Below the pieces are notes generated by a model, which saw nothing but the letters and a program-made list of their open reading frames with translations, made no database searches and was not told the origin of the DNA. The translations under genes were made by a program, and so were the position numbers. Positions 79 to 11,193 of a stretch of DNA of 64,000 nucleotides are shown piece after piece. The stretch is from Metallosphaera hakonensis JCM 8857 = DSM 7519 (GTDB lineage: Archaea > Thermoproteota > Thermoprotei_A > Sulfolobales > Sulfolobaceae), in the NCBI RefSeq assembly GCF_003201675.2, contig NZ_CP029287.2, forward strand, positions 2,220,001 to 2,284,000, given 5' to 3'. Each line of letters begins with the position of its first letter. Position 1 is the stretch's first letter.

Positions 79-1566
79 ATGAGGACGAACGTAGTTCGTC
101 TCCTTCCAAATGGTTCGCAACGTAAAAAACTACTGAAGTTAGCGGACACTTCTGCGAAGTTGTTCAACGAGATAAACTACGAGAGGAGGCAACAGTTCTT
201 CCGAGAAGGAAAGGTGGACTTCAAGGGGACGTGGGGTAAGTGCTACGAGAAGTACAAGGGTGTACTTGGTGTCAACGCTCAGGCTGTGATGAAGAACAAC
301 GAGGCGTGGTCGTCCTTCTTCTCCCTTCTGAAGCTGAAGAAACAGGGAAAGTTACCGCCCCGCATGGGTCACGTTTCTCCTCCACGTTATTGGAAGGACA
401 GGGAGAGCAAGGAGAGGGAGAAGATACTGGTGGTTAGGCAAGACCGTTATGAAGTGGATGAGGAGAGTCATAAGATCGTCCTCAAGGACTTCATGGAGAT
501 CGATTTTGAAGGTAGGCTTAGGTGGTACGGTAAGCAAGGTAGGCTGGAGATAATTTACCATGAGGACACGGACAGGTGGTACGCCCACATACCCGTTGAG
601 GTAGGCGTTGAGACCACTAAGAGAGGTAAAAAGTCTAAACACGTAGTTCACGGTGAGAGGAGGTCAATTCAAGTTTCACCGAAAGGTAATAAGGTAGCTT
701 CCATTGATCTGGGTGTAAACGTTTTGGCAAGTGCAGTGGTGGACGACGGCACTTGGTTGTTATACAAGGGTATTAGGGCAAAGGAGGACTACTTTCACTT
801 CGAGAAGAGGGTTGCTGAAGTTCAATCACTTGCCCACAAAGCTAGAAACGTAGGTGAGTGTGAGGCTTACGAGGAGTTAACGAGAGAGAAGAGGAGGCTG
901 TTCAAGAAGTTAGAGAGGAGGTTCCTCCATCTATACAGAACATTGGCGAGAGGTATCGTTGAGGAACTTCATAAGTTGGGCGTATCCACCCTCTACCTGG
1001 GCTATCCTTACAACATTGGGCAAGATAAGGGTAGCAAGTACGCTGTGAACGCATGGTCTTACCGTAAGCTCATTGACGCAATCGAACTTAAGGCTCAGGA
1101 GTACGGCATGAAGGTGTATGAGGTAGTTGAGTACAACACGTCCAGACTATGCGCTTATCATAACGTTGAGGTGAGGAGGAAACCTAGGGGAGTAATAACG
1201 TGACGATGTCCGGAATGCAAATATTTCGACGAAAATATTGATATAGAAACAAGAATTTTTCTAGGTATAAGGTTATATCTGGATAACCTGTAAACCGTCT
1301 ATCGTGAGACCCCATTCCCCGAGATAGATGATCCGAATTACCGGTAGAAAAATGATAAAAACATAAATATTTTCTACAATATAAATTGAATTTTTTACAT
1401 TCCGGACATTCTCACGTGCCCACTCAACCACAAATTACACAGCGACTTGAACGCCTTGAACATTCTGAAAAAGGCCACGGGAAAGGTCATCAACGCGGTA
1501 AAGAAGCCTCTCTCCTTCATCGTAGACCATAACCGAATAGCTCCCGTAAAGGGGAGTAACCCTTGA
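79..1566 (+). pseudogene. tnpB: TnpB nuclease of an IS200/IS605-type element, interrupted by a MITE
   Basis: The reading frame gives 374 residues to a TGA at 1201-1203. RuvC-I lies around Asp210 (SIDLGVN), and the sequence stops at NTSRLCAYHNVEVRRKPRG, just before the expected C-terminal zinc-ribbon/RuvC-III block. That block (TCPLNHKLHSDLNALNIL) reappears in frame at 1414-1566 after a 212-bp insertion. Removing 1202-1413 plus one copy of the 4-bp duplication gives one continuous 423-codon gene. TnpB proteins are RNA-guided nucleases. The usual second acidic residue is not obvious here (LYLGYPYNI), as I recall for other Sulfolobales TnpBs. No tnpA is visible, although only 78 bases precede the gene. 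Confidence 0.9.
1202..1413. mobile_element. MITE family B, copy 1 (212 bp) inside tnpB
   Basis: This non-coding AT-rich element has inverted ends GACGATGTCCGGAATG (left) and GAGAATGTCCGGAATG (right end, reverse complement). It is flanked by the 4-bp direct repeat ACGT (1198-1201 and 1414-1417). A second copy at 52187-52397 is nearly the same length and similar along its whole length. The insertion places TGA directly after codon 374 of tnpB. No open frame of useful size lies inside, so it must depend on a transposase supplied in trans. The best candidate relative in this window is the IS5-like element at 39792-41165. Confidence 0.88.
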
Positions 1567-1591: not shown

Positions 1592-2818
1592 CGGTAGACC
1601 CCAAAATCACCTCCGTAAAAATAAATCTATCTTGTTATTAAGTGTTTTCTCAAGAGTAAATATAAAATCCTTGAGATCCGATAGATCGTCTAGAAAGCAG
1701 AGGATGAGCAGCAACCTGAACTCCTCCCTTCTCATGACGTCCTTGAACACGGTGTAAAGCGAGTAGAAGACCATGGCCAGCACGAAGATCAACTCGCGGA
1801 AGACGAACTTGGTGGAGCTCGTGAAGGGAAGGAAGGCCTTGATGTTCCTGTAAGACGTCTCAATGGGACCCCTAACCTTGTTGTACAGCTTCAGCACTTC
1901 CCTCTTGGTTAGGTTGAGGTTGGTCGCCCTCGCGAAGTACACCACGGTCTTCCTCTTCTTCTTAACGATTTCCTTACCATACACCAGAAGTCTGAAGTTG
2001 ACCTGCTCTTCCTTCTTACGTCTCTTGCTATTGGTCGCGTACTCCCCGTCGAACTCCTCGTATATCTTCACGTCCCCCACGGGGACTCCTATCACGTACT
2101 TGAACTGCGATATGAACCTGAGGACTTCCACGGTGTAGAAGCCCGCGTCCAGGGTTACGAGCCTCACCTTGAAGCCCATTCCCGCAATTTGCTCCACGAG
2201 GAACTTCACGATCTCGTCCTTGGTCATCCCGTTAACTTGGGGAACGAAGGCCAGGAGGAGCACCATTCCCTGATACTTCGTGGTCGCGGTGGCGTAGTTC
2301 CACGAGCTCCCCTTGGCCGAACTACCCAACCCGTTCACCGGCTTACCGTACCACGTCTTCGTGGTCCAATCTATGGAAACGTCGACCTCCTTCACTCCCT
2401 TGAGCATCTCCATGGAAATCCTCCTCATGGACTCCAGGAGCTTCTCCACAACCTCGTTTCCCTGCTCCTCCACGTAGTTCCTCACGGTCTGAGGTGACAC
2501 GTTGTACCCGTTGGACCTGCCCTCCACGGAGTCCTTCCATAAGCACGCGGAGACCAGGACTCTCGCTACCTCCTCCGCCCTTCTCCCCTTGAAGGTTAAC
2601 ATGGAAAGTAATTTATATCCTATTTGTTGTAGATTATTTTGGTGAGGAAGACCCGGTGTTACCACCTTAGGTTCACCACGTGATAATACCGGGTTCCTCG
2701 CCTTAAACCTTTCTTCAATTTGTTGCGCTCTTGACAAAGCAATAAATTCTATTACTTTTTACGAATCTGATACTACCCAACCAGAATTATTTTTCGTAAA
2801 ATGATTTTGGGTCTACCG
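1592..2818 (-). mobile_element. ISH3-like (IS4 superfamily) insertion sequence, 1227 bp
   Basis: The ends are imperfect inverted repeats of about 30 bp, beginning CGGTAGACCCCAAAATC on the left and CGGTAGACCCAAAATC on the reverse-complemented right. The 4-bp direct repeat TTTA flanks the element (1588-1591 and 2819-2822). It carries one transposase gene on the minus strand. The size resembles ISC1225-type Sulfolobales elements, but I cannot confirm the subfamily. It sits 25 bp past the tnpB stop, inside the hairpin that forms the right end of the tnpB element, so it is a nested insertion. Confidence 0.87.
1607..2737 (-). CDS. DDE transposase of the ISH3-like element
   Basis: The protein has 376 residues from a TTG start. 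It cuts and rejoins the ends of its own element. A DDE triad can be proposed from context: Asp123 in SIDWTTKTWYG, Asp197 in LVTLDAGFY and Glu293 in GPIETSYRNIKAF, which is the usual IS4/ISH3 spacing with the Y..(K) signature after the Glu. The N-terminal third is helical and probably binds DNA. Length fits an intact ISH3 transposase, and no frameshift is seen, so the element may still be active. Codon use is more GC-rich than in most neighbouring genes. Confidence 0.85.
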   Translation of the reverse strand: MSRAQQIEERFKARNPVLSRGEPKVVTPGLPHQNNLQQIGYKLLSMLTFKGRRAEEVARVLVSACLWKDSVEGRSNGYNVSPQTVRNYVEEQGNEVVEKLLESMRRISMEMLKGVKEVDVSIDWTTKTWYGKPVNGLGSSAKGSSWNYATATTKYQGMVLLLAFVPQVNGMTKDEIVKFLVEQIAGMGFKVRLVTLDAGFYTVEVLRFISQFKYVIGVPVGDVKIYEEFDGEYATNSKRRKKEEQVNFRLLVYGKEIVKKKRKTVVYFARATNLNLTKREVLKLYNKVRGPIETSYRNIKAFLPFTSSTKFVFRELIFVLAMVFYSLYTVFKDVMRREEFRLLLILCFLDDLSDLKDFIFTLEKTLNNKIDLFLRR

Positions 2819-3048: not shown

Positions 3049-5013
3049 TTAATAAAACTTCATTTTTCTAACAAGGTATTTTTCACCCTTTCTCTCTATC
3101 AATTTCTTTCTCAATAACTCTCTAGCTACATCCCTACCGAACCTTTTCTCGACGTCTCCCAACGAAAACTCCTTGTCCTGAAGTTCCTGCAAAGCTCTTC
3201 TGACATCAAAGGCTACGGTATCGTTGGAATAAATTTCCCGACAAAGAACTTCCACCTGAATTCCATGTCTTCTCAGGTTATCCCTTAGTTCTCTAAGGCC
3301 GATCCTAATGCACATCTCCCTAAGATCCGTTATTCCAGACTTAACTAGATCTAAAGTCACGTCTCTAGGTATCCCCGCCTTAGCCAACTTAATCCCTTCC
3401 GACGGTACGCCGTACTTTAAGTTCTCATGGATTTCAAGGGCCCTTAAATATCTATTATCCCCCAAAGCCTTTAGTACTCTAAACATGGCAAAGGAAATCC
3501 ACCTGGCATTAGAAATGACTTCATTAACATCTTTAGTGGTCAATTTATCGCAAACGCCCTCAAGCGATTCTCCCCCCATCCACTTGGACAATAACTGAAC
3601 ACCATCCTTGCATCCCCTGAGCGATGGGGCCACTGCCGGAGATCCAACTATTGCAGATACCAGGTCTACTTTCTCGTCCTCTAGAGGGAAGCCGGATAAC
3701 GCCTTGACGTCTATGTAACTAACAGCTACCGCATGCCCCAATGACGTTACTGATATTCCGCGGTTAAGAACCACTAACTTCATCTCCTTAAGGCGGGAAA
3801 GCGAATATTCTATCTTGCTTGCTTCGATTCCGTTGAAATTGAATGTTGAGTTCAGTGAGGACCTGAACTCATCCATCTCAACCCCATCGTTCCAGGAGAT
3901 ATATGCCAGGGATAAAGTGTCCAGGTCAGGCTTCGCGTTTTGTGAAGTCATTGCCCCATGATAATATCTCTGCGCCAGGTCACGCGCGGTTCTTTCGGAA
4001 TTGGAGACTATGATTATCATCCCTTCACTGTCATATTTAGGTCTCCCAGCCCTCCCAGCCATTTGCCTAAACTCAGAAACAGTTACATCTTTCCATCCCT
4101 TGAATTCGCCTTTCTCATTGACGTCCGGTAACTTTAGCTCGTAAAAGAGCACTGCATAGACCGGAAGATTGACTCCCTGACCTAAAGCCGTGGTTGAAAC
4201 TACGACGTTGATATCGCCCTGCAATAACATATCGAGGACCTTGGTTCTCTCGTCATAGGGCATTCCACTGTGGTAATGATGAGCCCTGAAATCTCTCTTT
4301 CTAAGTTCTAGGGCTAAGGATTCGGCAGATCTCCTACTCTTTACAAAGACCAATGCGTTTTTACCTTTTCCCGTTATCTTTTCCAATACTTGGACGAGTA
4401 CCTCAAATCTAGGCCGGGTTAATTTATGGGGACTAAAGGTCTCCTCCCAGTCGCCACATTTCAAGACATAGGGGTAAGCCACGCATTCGTGGAGGGGGAC
4501 AGTTCTCTTCTGGTGAGAAATCATCTTCGCGTTTAGCCAAGACGTGTACTTATCTGGATTACTTAGGGTAGCGCTCAGTGAAATCGTGGGCACATGTCTT
4601 GCCTTGGCCCAAAGAACTATGTTCTCCAGTGCCAATCCCCTGGATGTTTCGACGTTGTGAACTTCATCTATGACTAGTCTTGAGACCTTCTCTAACCATG
4701 GATAACCGTGCCTTATTGAACTGTCGAATTTCTCATATGTTAAGAGAAGAACATCAGAGCTTATTCTCCTGAGATCGTCTTCGTAGGCATCGGTATCCAC
4801 TAAAAGAGCCCTAGTCCTGTTCCTTAGTGAACTGTAAACCTCCCTGGATAGAGCCTTCAGTGGAGACACGTAAACTGATAGTCCGTCGCTCTTAGCTAAG
4901 ACCCTCTTAGCTATATGCGTTTTACCACTACCTGTTGGCGCGGATACCAAGTAATTCCTAGAGGGATCAGAGTTGTATTCGCTGAAGAATAGCTCAGCTA
5001 GGGGAAATGACAT
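3049..5013 (-). CDS. Ski2-like superfamily 2 helicase (DEVH box)
   Basis: This 654-residue ATP-dependent helicase begins almost directly with the Walker A motif (APTGSGKT, residues 25-32). It then has TYEKFD, the Walker B box DEVH (116-119), SAT (147-149), a GQGVNLP motif and motif VI QMAGRAGRP. A winged-helix and helical C-terminus follows. The order matches Ski2/Hel308-type helicases, but the Q-motif region before Walker A is nearly absent and the C-terminus lacks a clear helix-hairpin-helix. True Hel308 is encoded separately at 60112. It is probably a paralogue acting on nucleic acid during repair or RNA processing, with substrate unknown. ATG start at 5013. Confidence 0.8.
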   Translation of the reverse strand: MSFPLAELFFSEYNSDPSRNYLVSAPTGSGKTHIAKRVLAKSDGLSVYVSPLKALSREVYSSLRNRTRALLVDTDAYEDDLRRISSDVLLLTYEKFDSSIRHGYPWLEKVSRLVIDEVHNVETSRGLALENIVLWAKARHVPTISLSATLSNPDKYTSWLNAKMISHQKRTVPLHECVAYPYVLKCGDWEETFSPHKLTRPRFEVLVQVLEKITGKGKNALVFVKSRRSAESLALELRKRDFRAHHYHSGMPYDERTKVLDMLLQGDINVVVSTTALGQGVNLPVYAVLFYELKLPDVNEKGEFKGWKDVTVSEFRQMAGRAGRPKYDSEGMIIIVSNSERTARDLAQRYYHGAMTSQNAKPDLDTLSLAYISWNDGVEMDEFRSSLNSTFNFNGIEASKIEYSLSRLKEMKLVVLNRGISVTSLGHAVAVSYIDVKALSGFPLEDEKVDLVSAIVGSPAVAPSLRGCKDGVQLLSKWMGGESLEGVCDKLTTKDVNEVISNARWISFAMFRVLKALGDNRYLRALEIHENLKYGVPSEGIKLAKAGIPRDVTLDLVKSGITDLREMCIRIGLRELRDNLRRHGIQVEVLCREIYSNDTVAFDVRRALQELQDKEFSLGDVEKRFGRDVARELLRKKLIERKGEKYLVRKMKFY

Positions 5014-5136: not shown

Positions 5137-5955
5137 TCAGTGGTTCAGAAAGTTCCAACACCTTACCTGACTTTCACCCACAGATATCAAAGGGGGCTTC
5201 TCGAGCCTGCATTTCCTTTGCAACTCCCTGCTCCTCCTCATCACGTCACAGTAATCATGAAATCTGCAACCGCTTCCGCTTCCTCTTCCAACCTCCACAA
5301 CGTTTACCTTCTCGCCTTTTCTCCCTATCCTTATTGTTGAGTTCGCTATAGTCATGGAGTACGGGTGTAAAAGTTTAGATCCCGTTTCAACCACCTCGTC
5401 CTCATACATAACAAAGACGGAGGAACATGGGGGGAGGAGGTCCGTGGAACTTACGAACAAGAGGGCATCGAGGCCCCTTGATTTAATTATCTTAGAAAGC
5501 ACTCTCAGAACCTTGAGTTTGCCCTGTTCCTCAACTTGTTGGAAAATGTCTTCAACAATCGAGAACTTAGTTCTGTTCAGGAAGAGCGGGGTAAAGTATA
5601 CCTTCGCCAAGTTGAGGTCGCTCAACTCGTCAAGGAAGTCATCTGGTATGTCCAAAAGGAACATGATCTCCTCAACTCTCTTGCTCGATTTGAACCAGGC
5701 AGAAATCAAGTCCTTTGCCTTTATTCTTCCCCGCTCAAGGTGACTGGGTATCAGGTAAGTTGATCTGATTGCCTCTTTCCTCGAGATGTATTCTCCCGTG
5801 AAAGGATCTATGTACTGAGCTTCCAACTGTCCCTTCTTCAATTTCTTTGACAACTCTTGTTTATAACTGTCCCATTCTCCGAGGACGCAAGTGATATCTT
5901 TGATCTCTGATATAGGCGATCCCTTGATCTTGATCAAGCCAGTCTCACCTCTCAA
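5137..5955 (-). CDS. Degenerate oligopeptide ABC transporter ATPase (OppF/DppF-like)
   Basis: The protein has 272 residues. The C-terminal half is recognisable as the OppF/DppF type: VMYEDEVVETG, then LLHPYS, then the cysteine-rich tail (C..H...C, later CRLEKPP and VRCW) typical of oligopeptide ABC ATPases. No Walker A P-loop, LSGGQ signature or catalytic Asp-Glu pair can be found, and the N-terminus starts past the place where the P-loop should be. Upstream genes encode its OppD-like partner and two permeases, with only a few bases between. The start is TTG. Either it is a structural pseudo-ATPase or the operon is decaying. Confidence 0.7.
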   Translation of the reverse strand: MRGETGLIKIKGSPISEIKDITCVLGEWDSYKQELSKKLKKGQLEAQYIDPFTGEYISRKEAIRSTYLIPSHLERGRIKAKDLISAWFKSSKRVEEIMFLLDIPDDFLDELSDLNLAKVYFTPLFLNRTKFSIVEDIFQQVEEQGKLKVLRVLSKIIKSRGLDALLFVSSTDLLPPCSSVFVMYEDEVVETGSKLLHPYSMTIANSTIRIGRKGEKVNVVEVGRGSGSGCRFHDYCDVMRRSRELQRKCRLEKPPLISVGESQVRCWNFLNH

Positions 5956-5959
5956 CGGA

Positions 5960-6814
5960 TTAAGCTCCCGTAGTATATGCCACGCATCTTACCCTTTGGT
6001 TCCCCAGGGTCAACCAAGGTATTTCTCCAAGGCACTTGGGAGTCGCGTGCCTGCATTCGCCAGAGTAAGGGCACCCTTTCGCCTTTCTTTTCTTGTCTTT
6101 TATCTCACCCGCGATCAGGTCCACAGTGTAGGGATGTAAAGGTGTTATTAAGACGTCTTTACCTTCCTCCACCATCTCCCCGCTGTACAGAACTACTATA
6201 CGGTCGCTGAGTCTTGAGAGTATACCTGGGTTATTTTCCAGGATCATGAAGGAGCTTCTCACAGAACCCATCAGATCAATCAGAGAATTCACCACGGCTG
6301 CCCTTCCTATATCACCTAGGCCGAACTCCAAATCGTCAATGATAACGTGATCAGGCTCAAGGAATGTAGCCAAGGCTATGGCGACCTTCTTGAGTTGTAC
6401 CGGTGATAATTGATGAGGTAACTTCTCCATTACTTCCTTTTCGACTCCCAAAACTTTTAGGAACTCAATTCCAGTCTCAATTCCGTACTCTGGATTCCCC
6501 ATCTCGTGAGACACAACTATTTCTGCAAAGTGCGAACCAATGTCATATATGGGATTAAACATTGATGCTGGATCGTAGAAAACTGCAGATATTTTCTCCC
6601 ATCTAGCTTTCAAGAGGATATCCTTGGACTTAACTAGGTCAGTTCCGTCCAGTAGGATAGATCCACTAACGTTGCTGAGCAGTCCTAAGGTGGCTGGAAT
6701 TATTACCTCCTTTCCGCTATCTTTCTCGCCTAGAACTCCAATCGATTCCTTCCCTAAAGTAACGTTAAAGCACTTCAGAGATTCGCCCACAGTAAGACAT
6801 CTGTATTCTAGCAT
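5960..6814 (-). CDS. Degenerate oligopeptide ABC transporter ATPase (OppD/DppD-like)
   Basis: The 284 residues keep the full length and fold order of an OppD/DppD ATPase, but every core motif is altered. The P-loop is GEKDSGKE (29-36) with Glu where Ser/Thr should follow Lys. The signature is LSPVQ (136-140) instead of LSGGQ. Walker B reads HVIIDD (156-161) with Asp in place of the catalytic Glu. The tail has LHPYTVDLI and the usual cysteine cluster (CPYSGEC, then CLGEIPW and VRC). In an active transporter this subunit would hydrolyse ATP in the cytoplasm to drive peptide import. Activity here is doubtful. Confidence 0.75.
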   Translation of the reverse strand: MLEYRCLTVGESLKCFNVTLGKESIGVLGEKDSGKEVIIPATLGLLSNVSGSILLDGTDLVKSKDILLKARWEKISAVFYDPASMFNPIYDIGSHFAEIVVSHEMGNPEYGIETGIEFLKVLGVEKEVMEKLPHQLSPVQLKKVAIALATFLEPDHVIIDDLEFGLGDIGRAAVVNSLIDLMGSVRSSFMILENNPGILSRLSDRIVVLYSGEMVEEGKDVLITPLHPYTVDLIAGEIKDKKRKAKGCPYSGECRHATPKCLGEIPWLTLGNQRVRCVAYTTGA

Positions 6815-7564
6815 TCATTTCACCACATAATCCGAAAGTAAAAACACAAGTACCAGGAGGATTGCCCTAAAACCCGCTGGGGGAAGAAATAACCACCAAT
6901 ACTCAAACAACCTTGAACTATTGAGAAGAGTTGTTAGTGTGGGGAAGTTCGGGTCTCCAACTCCAGCGATCACTCCAAGCGCAGTGTACACTGCAATCCC
7001 ATCTATAACCGATGGTAAAAGATAGCGTCTGGCCAAACTCTTCCCAATCTCTGTAGAGGCCTTGAGTCTTTGCATCAAAGAAATTTCCTCTATCCTCGAG
7101 AGCGGATTTCCCTTACATACGGCCTCAGAGACTTGCCTGGATATCACGGACCATCCTGTAAGTCCCACGGCTATGGCAGTCAAGAAGAAGTTGGCTTTAA
7201 CAAAGGTTACCTCGGGTACGGCGAAGAAAATTATGACGGCCATAAGCAACGGTACCCTTGGTAAGGACGTGAAACCATCAGCTATTCTCATTAACAGGGA
7301 TCGTAACGAACCGCATGAACTCCCAGCCAGAATCCCGTATGACACACCTAACCCAACTTCGACTGCGGATACTAGAAAGCCAAAGAGCAGAGTATCTACC
7401 ACAGCCCTCGCGTTAACGTTAATCATGTTTTGACCGTTGATGTAAGTTCCCAATGGAAATGATGAGGAAGGAGGCAGTAGCGGAGAAGAGCCTGGAAGCT
7501 GATAAAAAGTAAACATCAATCCCCAAGCTAAATAGACAAGGAACGGTATTGCAAACCATTTCAT
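6815..7564 (-). CDS. ABC transporter permease, DppC/OppC type
   Basis: This 249-residue membrane protein has an N-terminal anchor followed by about five more hydrophobic segments, matching the BPD_transp_1 permease fold. DppC/OppC proteins usually reach 280-300 residues, so this one is short. It starts by overlapping the end of the upstream permease gene (7561-7564), which implies translational coupling, and it abuts the OppD-like ATPase gene. The EAA loop, which docks the ATPase, is only loosely conserved (residues around 150-170, ISRQVSEAVCKGNPLSRIEE). Together with its neighbours it would form a peptide or sugar importer. Confidence 0.7.
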   Translation of the reverse strand: MKWFAIPFLVYLAWGLMFTFYQLPGSSPLLPPSSSFPLGTYINGQNMINVNARAVVDTLLFGFLVSAVEVGLGVSYGILAGSSCGSLRSLLMRIADGFTSLPRVPLLMAVIIFFAVPEVTFVKANFFLTAIAVGLTGWSVISRQVSEAVCKGNPLSRIEEISLMQRLKASTEIGKSLARRYLLPSVIDGIAVYTALGVIAGVGDPNFPTLTTLLNSSRLFEYWWLFLPPAGFRAILLVLVFLLSDYVVK

Positions 7565-8763
7565 CGTCTCACCCTTGGATCAACGAAACCGTAGAAAATA
7601 TCCCCCACTAGGCTTGATAATAGTACTATCGTAGAGTAAAATATTAGAACTCCCTCAACTACCTTGAAATCTCCATACACAGCTCCCTCTCTAAGGAGGA
7701 GTCCCAGGCCAGGCCAATAGAAAATTGATTCTACGAGGAACTCCGCGATCAGCATATCAATGAACGCAGCTGAGATCGTAGATAGAGCCACAACTGACGT
7801 ACTCCCTAAAACATGTCTATATACTAGGATAGCTCTAGAGAGCCCTTTTGCCTTAAAGGAATCCTGCACCTTATACGGTAGGAATAACCTATTGGCGAAC
7901 GTGCCTATGAAGGGGAAGAATAAGGAAATCAATGGAAATATCAAGTTCACCCCTTTCTCTACATCTAAATGAAAACCGTAAATTAGTGAAAGAGCAATGA
8001 TCCAGGATGCCAACGCGTTACCTATATACTTCCATTTTGTTATCAATTTAGTGAGTGGTCCACTCTGGGCTATCCCTCTCACAGCAAGGAACGTTCCCAA
8101 GTATACGGAGAGAGCAAAGGATATTCCCGAGAGAACGCTGGTGTATGGTAGTGAGGACAGGAGAAGAGAATCAACAGCTATATCGTAACGTCTGCTTAGA
8201 CCGAAATTTAACGTAATGAGTTCAATAATTACCTTAAGTATGCTCTCCCCATGAGCTATCTCTAGGAAACCAGTTATGGAAGTAATTATGATCATAGAGA
8301 TGATAAATGAGAGTAACCTCTTCATCACATATGATTTGATGGATCCTTCTCCCTCAGAATTCGCTAAATTCCCAATAGTTCTTTCTTGAACTAAAAGCAC
8401 CATTCCTCTGAATCCCATAGCGGTTCCCATGAACACTAAAAGTATTCCGGCCAAGGATAGAGGCGCTAGGCTCTCTACGTATCCTGATACAACATAAACA
8501 TAAAACGACGTCGAGTTTAAGGGGAAGTCCTTAATTTCATTCAAATTGATTGTATGACTGCCATTCACAATGACCTCGGCCGTGGGACTCCCATGGGAAA
8601 GTACGGCCCAGTACTGTGATTCCCAGTTAGGTGGTGGGATGGCGCATTTTCCAAATCCGTATGATATCGTGGAGAAGTATGAACTCTCAGACGCTATAAG
8701 TGACACCCCTATTCCGATCATTATTAAGATAACCGATGTAACTACTAGGGTCCAGGCTCTCAT
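7561..8763 (-). CDS. ABC transporter permease, DppB/OppB type
   Basis: The 400-residue protein has an N-terminal signal-anchor (VVTSVILIMIGIGVSLIA), an extracytoplasmic loop of roughly 70 residues, and about six further membrane spans with the DppB-type ending (FYGFVDPRVRR). It is the first gene of a four-gene operon with the DppC-like permease and two degenerate ATPases. No substrate-binding protein gene is next to it, although such a lipoprotein normally accompanies Opp/Dpp operons. The substrate is unknown. The upstream sequence (8764-8800) has a TTTAAA-like box suitable for an archaeal promoter. Confidence 0.7.
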   Translation of the reverse strand: MRAWTLVVTSVILIMIGIGVSLIASESSYFSTISYGFGKCAIPPPNWESQYWAVLSHGSPTAEVIVNGSHTINLNEIKDFPLNSTSFYVYVVSGYVESLAPLSLAGILLVFMGTAMGFRGMVLLVQERTIGNLANSEGEGSIKSYVMKRLLSFIISMIIITSITGFLEIAHGESILKVIIELITLNFGLSRRYDIAVDSLLLSSLPYTSVLSGISFALSVYLGTFLAVRGIAQSGPLTKLITKWKYIGNALASWIIALSLIYGFHLDVEKGVNLIFPLISLFFPFIGTFANRLFLPYKVQDSFKAKGLSRAILVYRHVLGSTSVVALSTISAAFIDMLIAEFLVESIFYWPGLGLLLREGAVYGDFKVVEGVLIFYSTIVLLSSLVGDIFYGFVDPRVRR

Positions 8764-8961: not shown

Positions 8962-10107
8962 ATGGGCTTATCAGTGCTATTTAACGTAAGCCATAGCAAG
9001 AGCTTCACCGAGGAAATTAGGGCCTTGTTAAGGATCACTCTCGTTCCAGAGTCCAAGTTCGATGCTAAGAACTTCCACTACATTATTCTTATTGACAGAA
9101 GTTACTCTATGAAAGGAGAAAAATTGGATATGGCAAAGGAGGGAGCGAGACTTTTAATTGAAAATCTACCAAAGGATAGTTACTTCTCTCTTTTGACCTT
9201 CAATGAGAAGATTGACATTATAAAGGAACACGTTCATCCGTCTCCCGTAAATTTAGATCAAGTGAAGGTTGGGAGCGGGACAGCAATGTATAAGGCACTT
9301 CAAGAGGCCTTCTCGTTGGCATCTAAGTATAATCAACCTACTTTTGCGATTTTGCTCACGGATGGCGAACCTTCCGACATGGGTTGTATGCCTGGTCTGT
9401 CTAGAAAGTTTAACCTGGCTAAATGTCTACCAGTATATCAAGGTCTCACTGTTCCGGAAAACGTTCAGATAATATCCTTTGGCTTGGGCGAGGAGTATAG
9501 CGAAGCCATATTGACGGAGGTATCAGAGAAGGGAAGGGGATTTTTCTATCACGTCACTGATCCCTCAGAGATACCGGACAAGATGCCTAAACTCGCCAAG
9601 TCCCAGATAGCTGCTAGCAATGTGGTAGTTGACCTGATCTCTGAGTCCCCGGTCAAGTTACTTAACTATAGTGAGTTACCAGTTAGGATTAACGCTGTAG
9701 AAGGGGTAGTGAAGATATACGGTGAAACTGTTATCCCTAGGGGATACGAAGGGAAGTTTATAACGCTCAAGTTGAATTACGATGACGAGAACGGAAGACA
9801 AAACAAAGTAATTGAGTTTTCCTTAAAGAGAGCCCAGTCTCAACAGGACTTTGTTTCTGGGTTAAATAGGGACTTACTAATGGAATATGAATACCTGAGA
9901 ACCCTTCAGGACTACTCAAGAGACGTTGAGGCAAACAATCTGGTAGAAGCTACCAAGAAGTTGGACAGACTAAAGGAGATTGCCGAACAGACTAGGAGAC
10001 AGGATCTTCAGGAGACTGCGCTTGAGTTAACCAGAAAGATGAGCTCAGGGGAAGGCTCGAAAGAGATAGCGAGCGAAGTGACCAGGAAAATGAGAAGCCA
10101 AGAATGA
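8962..10107 (+). CDS. von Willebrand factor A domain protein
   Basis: This 381-residue protein is probably cytoplasmic. The vWA domain occupies about residues 35-215 and has a complete MIDAS metal site: DRSYS (45-49), Thr107 in GSGTAM and Asp134 in LTDGEPSD. A beta-rich segment follows, then a charged helical tail from about residue 300. No signal peptide is seen. The next genes encode an SRPBCC protein and an XdhC-like protein, a set reminiscent of the accessory genes of molybdenum hydroxylases (CoxE, CoxG, CoxF/XdhC). A role in enzyme assembly is inferred from that context only, since CoxE proteins usually carry vWA near the C-terminus. Confidence 0.8.
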   Translation: MGLSVLFNVSHSKSFTEEIRALLRITLVPESKFDAKNFHYIILIDRSYSMKGEKLDMAKEGARLLIENLPKDSYFSLLTFNEKIDIIKEHVHPSPVNLDQVKVGSGTAMYKALQEAFSLASKYNQPTFAILLTDGEPSDMGCMPGLSRKFNLAKCLPVYQGLTVPENVQIISFGLGEEYSEAILTEVSEKGRGFFYHVTDPSEIPDKMPKLAKSQIAASNVVVDLISESPVKLLNYSELPVRINAVEGVVKIYGETVIPRGYEGKFITLKLNYDDENGRQNKVIEFSLKRAQSQQDFVSGLNRDLLMEYEYLRTLQDYSRDVEANNLVEATKKLDRLKEIAEQTRRQDLQETALELTRKMSSGEGSKEIASEVTRKMRSQE

Positions 10108-10119
10108 GAGCTACTTGGT

Positions 10120-10542
10120 GTGAAACTCATGATCAGTTTTTCAGTGAGTAAGACCTTCTCCCCGGAATTAAGGGAAGAAATCTGGGAGATTGTTAAGGAT
10201 ATAAATTCTATGCCGAAATATTGGAAGGGAATTCGGGAGCTAAATGTGAACCAGGTCTCCCATAACGTCTTTGAGGGCAGTGTCAGATTTGCGTTCCCGT
10301 CAACGTCTAGAGTGAGAATTCAGGTCCTCGATTACGCTGTCTTGGTCTCTTTCCTCAATGGTATACTGAGCGGAGAGAATAGGATAGAGGTCGGACAAGG
10401 CGAGCTTAGATCTACTTGGAATGTGGAAATGCCTTTCTATATGAGACCATTCGAGGGAAGAAATAAGGAGCACTTCATGGAAGGTGCAGAGCATGCCCTA
10501 GAGAGAATCATTGCTGAAGCCATTGGGAAACTCTCAAACTAG
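10120..10542 (+). CDS. SRPBCC/CoxG-like protein
   Basis: The protein has about 140 residues from GTG, or 137 from the ATG three codons on. It shows the alternating strand pattern of the START-like SRPBCC fold: an N-terminal strand (MISFSVSKTF), a helix ending near MPKYWKGI, repeated beta strands, and a long C-terminal helix (HALERIIAEAIGKL). CoxG-type members help mature or anchor molybdenum CO-dehydrogenase-like enzymes, but the fold also binds many hydrophobic ligands. It lies 12 bases after the vWA gene and is probably co-transcribed. The ligand cannot be read from the sequence. Confidence 0.55.
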   Translation: MKLMISFSVSKTFSPELREEIWEIVKDINSMPKYWKGIRELNVNQVSHNVFEGSVRFAFPSTSRVRIQVLDYAVLVSFLNGILSGENRIEVGQGELRSTWNVEMPFYMRPFEGRNKEHFMEGAEHALERIIAEAIGKLSN

Positions 10543-10617
10543 AATAATTAGAAACGGTTTGAGACATATTAGGCGCATGTTTAAATTTTTGAGATAAGCA
10601 GTTGATATGTGGTATCA

Positions 10618-11193
10618 ATGGATGTTCTAATATTCTCATCAAGTCGAGAGGCAGAGATGGAGGAGCCCGTTTTCTGTGACAGAGATACCGTTAAGGTTGA
10701 CGAGAGCAGATGTAAGGGTAAATCCTTGGGGGTAGCCCCGGCGGTCTCTAGGATGCTGAAGATGTTAGGCTATAAGGTTACTATAGTCGATCCGTTCGCC
10801 GAGGATGGTGATTATGAGGCTGACGAGGTAATAAGAGGGAGCACTTTCCAGATATCAGATGATGTGGTCAAGGACAAGTATGTATTGGTAGCTACAAAAC
10901 ATGTTTACGATACGTGGGCCCTTATGAAGGCAATTCTGGGAGGAGCAAAAGAAGTGTCAGCTGTGATGAGTGTTAAGAGAGCTAAGGTAATTTTAAAGAG
11001 GCTTTTACAGGCCGGCATTCCAAAGGAGAAACTTCTCACTTTGAGGATTCCTGCAGGGCTCGATCTAAATGGGGAACAGGAAAATGAGATAGCCCTAAGT
11101 ATTGTGGCGGAGATAGTGGCGGTATCTAGGGGAGGAACTGGAGTTCCTTTAAGAGACAAGAAAGGTTTAGCGAAAGTAGTGGAAGAGCTTTGA
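10618..11193 (+). CDS. XdhC/CoxF-like molybdenum hydroxylase accessory protein
   Basis: The protein has 191 residues from the ATG at 10618; a GTG three codons earlier is possible. A Rossmann-like core includes SGFQ-like strands and KYVLVATKHVYDTWALMKAIL. The C-terminal block GLDLNGEQENEIALSIVAEIVAV matches the XdhC_C signature. XdhC proteins bind the molybdenum cofactor and help its sulfuration before insertion into hydroxylases of the xanthine/CO dehydrogenase family. No such enzyme lies in the window, so the client is encoded elsewhere. The gene ends by overlapping the start of trmO. Confidence 0.65.
   Translation: MDVLIFSSSREAEMEEPVFCDRDTVKVDESRCKGKSLGVAPAVSRMLKMLGYKVTIVDPFAEDGDYEADEVIRGSTFQISDDVVKDKYVLVATKHVYDTWALMKAILGGAKEVSAVMSVKRAKVILKRLLQAGIPKEKLLTLRIPAGLDLNGEQENEIALSIVAEIVAVSRGGTGVPLRDKKGLAKVVEEL

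Follow-up and report, generated by a model that had tools for sequence, protein, structure and literature searches.

The genome of Metallosphaera hakonensis carries an oligopeptide-type ABC operon in which both nucleotide sites, as read from the alignments, lack the residues that bind and hydrolyze Mg-ATP, and the same is seen in all 17 orthologues. The comparative evidence supports the view that this ATPase-dead state is kept under selection for a non-catalytic role. On balance we lean towards an Opp-type B-C-D-F complex that would still be assembled, with neither ATP hydrolysis nor a binding protein, and a passive gated conduit is our first choice for what it does.

The operon lies on the minus strand, from 8763 down to 5137 of the window (the whole stretch of 64,000 nucleotides that was analyzed), at 2.23 Mb in a complete chromosome of 2.54 Mb. 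It is a tight set of OppB-, OppC-, OppD-, and OppF-like genes, here arranged head to tail. An AGGAGG that resembles a Shine-Dalgarno sequence stands upstream of the ATG of the OppB-like permease (7561..8763, 400 aa), whose stop has a 4-base overlap with the start of the OppC-like permease (6815..7564, 249 aa). The ATG of the OppD-like dead NBD (5960..6814, 284 aa) comes immediately 3′ of the OppC-like stop. The OppF-like dead NBD (5137..5955) has 272 aa as called, and its true start is probably not 5955 but the TTG at 5937 (266 aa), the position at which the Metallosphaera orthologues begin. All four frames are open at these coordinates, so the original prediction was right that both permeases are open and that both ATPase frames are intact with their family tails, which retain the HPY motif and four cysteines. 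By eye, the window also has mobile elements near the operon, one TnpB/OrfB-like (79-1203, plus strand) and one DDE-transposase-like (1607-2737, minus strand).

One feature of Opp/Dpp membership, a B-C-D-F gene set with an OppB-type permease and Opp-type NBD folds, is present. The OppD-like protein matches Opp/Dpp ATPases and passes PF00005 (35 bits), and a profile built from its alignment finds MtbOppD of M. tuberculosis with an E-value of 3e-54, DppD being matched too. As a single sequence, the OppF-like protein matches mainly through its tail, but its profile matches the dipeptide-transporter NBD 4fwi (DppD-type) over almost the full length (E-value 1e-17), and DppD, DppF, and OppF are among the top fold matches of its AF2 model (pLDDT 88.7). 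The AF2 model of the OppB-like protein (pLDDT 81) has E. coli OppB 8z21_A as its best fold match; the TM-scores of the fold matches of the operon proteins are moderate, 0.5-0.7. The BPD_transp_1 match of the OppB-like protein is confined to residues 220-400, and the OppC-like protein matches OppC/NikC profiles weakly. By name, the best NCBIfam match of the OppF-like protein is the MAG1360 family OppF-related protein NF045976, with 26.7 bits, far below the 200 bits that the family requires, and the match covers only residues 109-193; that model, of 777 positions, describes a different protein.

As controls for the catalytic motifs, we used 38 Opp-type ATPases of the same family from 19 canonical regions. 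These were chosen by the patterns GE[ST]G[SCA]GK[ST] and [LF]SGG[QME], so that their Walker A and signature partly reflect the filter; at the motif positions outside the filter, and at the four cysteines of the tail, the 38 are 95-100% conserved. The OppD-like protein here reads GEKDSGKE at the P-loop, YDP at the Q-loop, and LSPVQ at the signature, together with IIDDLE and LENNP, with DD for DE and N for H. None of the 17 orthologues has the third P-loop Gly, the Mg-ligand Ser/Thr, the Thr that follows, the Q-loop Gln, either signature Gly, the catalytic Glu, or the H-loop His, and the D-loop Asp occurs in a single one. The original prediction had taken D to have lost catalytic motifs. Its readings of GEKDSGKE, LSPVQ, and Asp for the catalytic Glu stand, but the P-loop is still there in altered form, with its Lys (K35) kept in 17/17. 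The Walker B Asp is kept in 13/17. What has replaced the lost residues is itself conserved: the third P-loop Gly is Asp, Asn, or Glu in nearly all orthologues, the Mg-binding Ser/Thr is Glu (Glu36) in 16/17, and Pro138 (15/17), Lys142 and Lys143 (16/17), Asp161 (17/17), and Asn194 (16/17) recur across the set. One genome (G072) has lost the remainder of the P-loop in an intact D gene.

The OppF-like protein has gone further. It lacks the Walker A, Q-loop, signature, catalytic Glu, and H-loop His, with only a relic, GEWDSYK, where the P-loop should be, which bears out the claim that it has neither P-loop nor signature. None of the 17 orthologues has the Q-loop Gln, whose segment has been deleted, and none has the signature GG, the Walker B Asp, the catalytic Glu, or the H-loop His; 11/17 still have the P-loop Lys. 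A set of catalytic motifs in each NBD (Walker A, signature, Walker B Glu, Q-loop, and H-loop), another feature of Opp/Dpp membership, is absent. Also absent is the one remaining consensus site of ABC proteins with a single degenerate site, as D and F both lack the Walker A and signature residues.

A separate observation is a new motif, SHFxEIxxSH, conserved just past the Q-loop of the dead D subunits (residues 91-103, window 6506-6544). Its S94, H95, E98, and H103 are all found in 17/17, and canonical subunits seldom have S94 or H95. The motif is a possible docking or metal site.

How widespread is the operon? Taking as orthologues matches to the OppB-like protein better than an E-value of 1e-25, all four genes are intact in 17 of the 31 Sulfolobaceae genomes and in 5 of the 11 genera, with C, D, and F beside B in each of the 17. 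The OppB-like orthologues have 35-73% identity, and the nearest named one is that of Metallosphaera javensis AS-7. In one genome (G150) the F gene is inverted and still adjoins the operon. In a search of 229 genomes of the class, the 17 reach 224-375 bits with a profile of the OppF-like protein and the next best reaches 104 bits; therefore, the set of 17 is sharply bounded. A maximum likelihood tree with the 38 canonical ATPases puts the dead D subunits in one clade (99/95) and the dead F subunits in another (100/99); there are long branches in it (G072 in both groups, and others meeting inside the dead F group), which bear less on the two groups as such than on the branching inside them, and we are unsure of the placement of G072.

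The loss of catalytic motifs from both subunits could be the mark of a pseudo-operon in decay whose frames have not broken yet. The evolutionary signal in the orthologues leaves that explanation practically no room. Aligning the orthologues, the check that the original prediction had proposed for itself, we found none with normal motifs and no internal stop or frameshift in the ORFs listed for the 17 genomes; a stop flagged for the F gene of G066 sits 5′ of its start codon. Most pairwise dN/dS values (Nei-Gojobori) are 0.03-0.17, with ranges of 0-0.10 for D, 0.055-0.28 for F (mostly <0.16), 0.03-0.12 for B, and 0.04-0.17 for C; ratios were taken only where dS was computable, several are imprecise with dS >1, and distant pairs are saturated and gave no ratio that we used. 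In one pair of loci (L066 and L067), the operon genes have dN/dS of 0.029-0.055, similar to the 0.008-0.068 of the flanking genes. In addition, random decay would scatter the replacements in D, whereas they are conserved in a subunit with a mean column identity of 60%. Identical altered residues shared by 17 species of five genera, and the gain of conserved residues, are likewise at odds with decay, which we rejected on the low dN/dS and the conserved replacements. The earlier suggestion of selection rather than decay is thus upheld.

What selection preserves appears to be assembly. The four Fe-S cysteines are invariant in 17/17 both in D (248, 254, 261, and 277) and in F (230, 236, 249, and 266), and the HPY motif is kept in both throughout, except in G072 D, where the Tyr is a Phe. 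ATPases whose oligo_HPY tail bears four Fe-S cysteines are a membership feature of Opp/Dpp; the feature is present, with Pfam scores below the cut-off in both (E-value 7e-4 for the OppF-like protein). In E. coli DppBCDF each ATPase carries a [4Fe-4S] cluster through these four cysteines, and mutating any one of them, or oxidizing the cluster, dissociates the complex (PMC12136057). Given cysteines that are invariant here and needed for assembly in Dpp, it is the assembly function that selection would be preserving. We infer that D and F here carry [4Fe-4S] clusters, and the conserved four-cysteine tails argue for a B-C-D-F assembly in the operon complex as well. The dead subunits also have extra cysteines, C6 and C15 in D (16/17) and C23 (14/17) and C177 (15/17) in F, that are absent or rare in canonical subunits and could form disulfides or an added metal site.

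The permeases have changed as well. In canonical OppB and DppB, a scoop after TM1 enters the binding protein, and in Dpp it binds DppA (PMC12136057). Compared with canonical permeases (a small set of 5 B and 4 C), the region after TM1 of the OppB-like protein is short and the scoop is lost. The protein has an extra N-terminal module (residues 1-145, window 8329..8763, minus strand), in which two TM helices surround an extracellular beta domain of ~70 residues (28-96), modeled by AF2 with a pLDDT of about 90 over residues 1-110. A search of 229 class genomes found the module in the same 17 genomes, plus one marginal match of 46 residues. We found no sequence relative of it in the PDB, and a Foldseek search with the whole OppB-like model gave good scores only for OppB/TMD-type matches. 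EAA coupling loops in both permeases, also a membership feature, are absent as a pair: the OppB-like loop is partly kept (KGL...RH), and the OppC-like one is lost, its coupling segment being gapped and variable relative to canonical OppC. Since B contacts D and C contacts F in Dpp (PMC12136057), more has been lost on the C-F side, from C and F alike.

A dedicated extracellular binding protein, SBP_bac_5, is a further membership feature, and it is absent near the operon, in agreement with the original prediction. The three SBP_bac_5 genes of M. hakonensis are at 0.83, 1.49, and 1.81 Mb, each by canonical Opp-type ATPase genes. Among the matches listed, none of the 17 operons has an SBP_bac_5 gene close to it, and in the relatives the nearest lie tens of kilobases off. 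We considered a binding protein upstream of the operon in relatives and rejected it, with no listed SBP_bac_5 match close by; the upstream ORFs in relatives look by eye like a P-type ATPase, an M32-type carboxypeptidase, a helicase, a DNA-binding regulator, and a 4-hydroxybutyryl-CoA-dehydratase-like enzyme. A link to sulfur oxidation through DoxA was uninformative, DoxA being present in 28 of the 31 genomes. The flanks of the operon vary by genus, and comparing them across genera we found no conserved regulator or kinase adjoining it.

Several neighbors are worth describing in their own right. Divergent from the operon (8962-11193, plus strand) are genes for a VWA protein with an ArnB C-terminal domain, an SRPBCC (polyketide cyclase-like) protein, and an XdhC-like protein, a cluster reminiscent of Cox-type maturation genes; SRPBCC relatives adjoin the operon also in the genera g2 and g5. 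In most Metallosphaera and in g2, OppF is followed immediately by a DEAD-type helicase gene (3049-5013, minus strand, in the window), and in G150 the helicase gene is upstream of OppB on the opposite strand.

We can now propose how such a complex may work. D and F would form a locked, Fe-S-clamped cytosolic base instead of acting as a motor, and D would remain docked on OppB, which keeps part of its coupling loop (KGL...RH). The solute that would cross the B/C pathway without ATP is probably a small molecule such as a peptide, and the OppB module would gate the conduit from outside. A fuller history, which we hold with slightly less belief than doubt, is that one ancestral event turned an ABC importer into an ATP- and binding-protein-independent conduit or receptor, with a Fe-S-clamped dead base and a new extracellular module replacing the dock. 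A passive conduit is favored only mildly over a receptor or a scaffold, on the grounds that the permease cores are well conserved (mean column identity of 58% for B and 60% for C versus 45% for F) and that there is no conserved regulator. A receptor made of the same parts is nearly as likely; the conduit is our first guess and the sensor our second. As a specific proposal, a membrane sensor is a possibility on the unlikely side: a ligand would bind to B/C and the OppB module, or redox state would be sensed by the two Fe-S domains, and a cytosolic partner would be signaled through the dead NBDs. The new extracellular module, conserved and unique to this operon, speaks for it, as do the invariant Fe-S cysteines, the dissociation of E. 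coli Dpp on cluster oxidation (PMC12136057), and the extra conserved cysteines in D and F. On the other hand, ordinary Opp ATPases conserve their Fe-S cysteines equally, and the flanks, which differ by genus, have no conserved regulator or kinase.

The lysine kept in D raises the question of whether nucleotide still binds. Non-hydrolytic binding of a nucleotide or phosphate by D through this lysine is possible from the sequence, and alternatively the lysine may be salt-bridged, given the acidic Asp32, Glu36, and Asp161 nearby. That the complex is a channel gated by ATP or ADP, in the manner of CFTR or SUR, seems improbable to us, in spite of K35 and the frequently retained Walker B Asp: the loop has become acidic through the replacement of the third Gly and the Mg ligand, F has lost the signature that would pair with it, and the D gene of G072 is intact without the rest of the loop. 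More improbable still is ATP-driven import with borrowed ATPases, in which B/C would pair with the canonical Opp NBDs, tails included, that the same genome encodes, leaving D and F as bystanders or regulators. Such an importer is hard to reconcile with an OppC-like permease that has lost its EAA loop, with the purifying selection on D and F, and with the absence of a scoop and of a spare binding protein.

Relative to the known DppBCDF and OppBCDF systems (E. coli; PDB 8z1v-8z21), the M. hakonensis operon shares the B-C-D-F set, the permease and NBD folds, the HPY motif, and a four-cysteine [4Fe-4S] tail on each ATPase. The known systems hydrolyze ATP with canonical motifs, have the scoop and EAA loops, and need DppA or OppA, whereas the NBD motifs, the scoop, the OppC EAA loop, and the binding protein are missing here and the OppB module is new. 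MtbOppABCD, which provides the best profile match for D and needs its Fe-S domain for assembly, differs in having fused NBDs, a binding protein, and an active ATPase. ABC proteins with one degenerate site are a familiar kind, and the heterodimeric ones, such as TmrAB, MRP1, CFTR, and SUR, also keep a degenerate site under selection in a structural role, but they are of the exporter type with one site active or ATP-binding, in contrast with an importer-type operon with both sites devoid of catalytic residues. One review treats degenerate sites as one of two, with an active partner site, and in the open-licence literature, searched non-exhaustively, we found no description of an importer-family complex with both sites degenerate. 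The operon is a natural experiment on what purpose an NBD dimer and its Fe-S domains serve when there is no hydrolysis. With an orthologue in the named species Metallosphaera javensis, the system is directly testable, and it bears on how pumps turn into channels or receptors.
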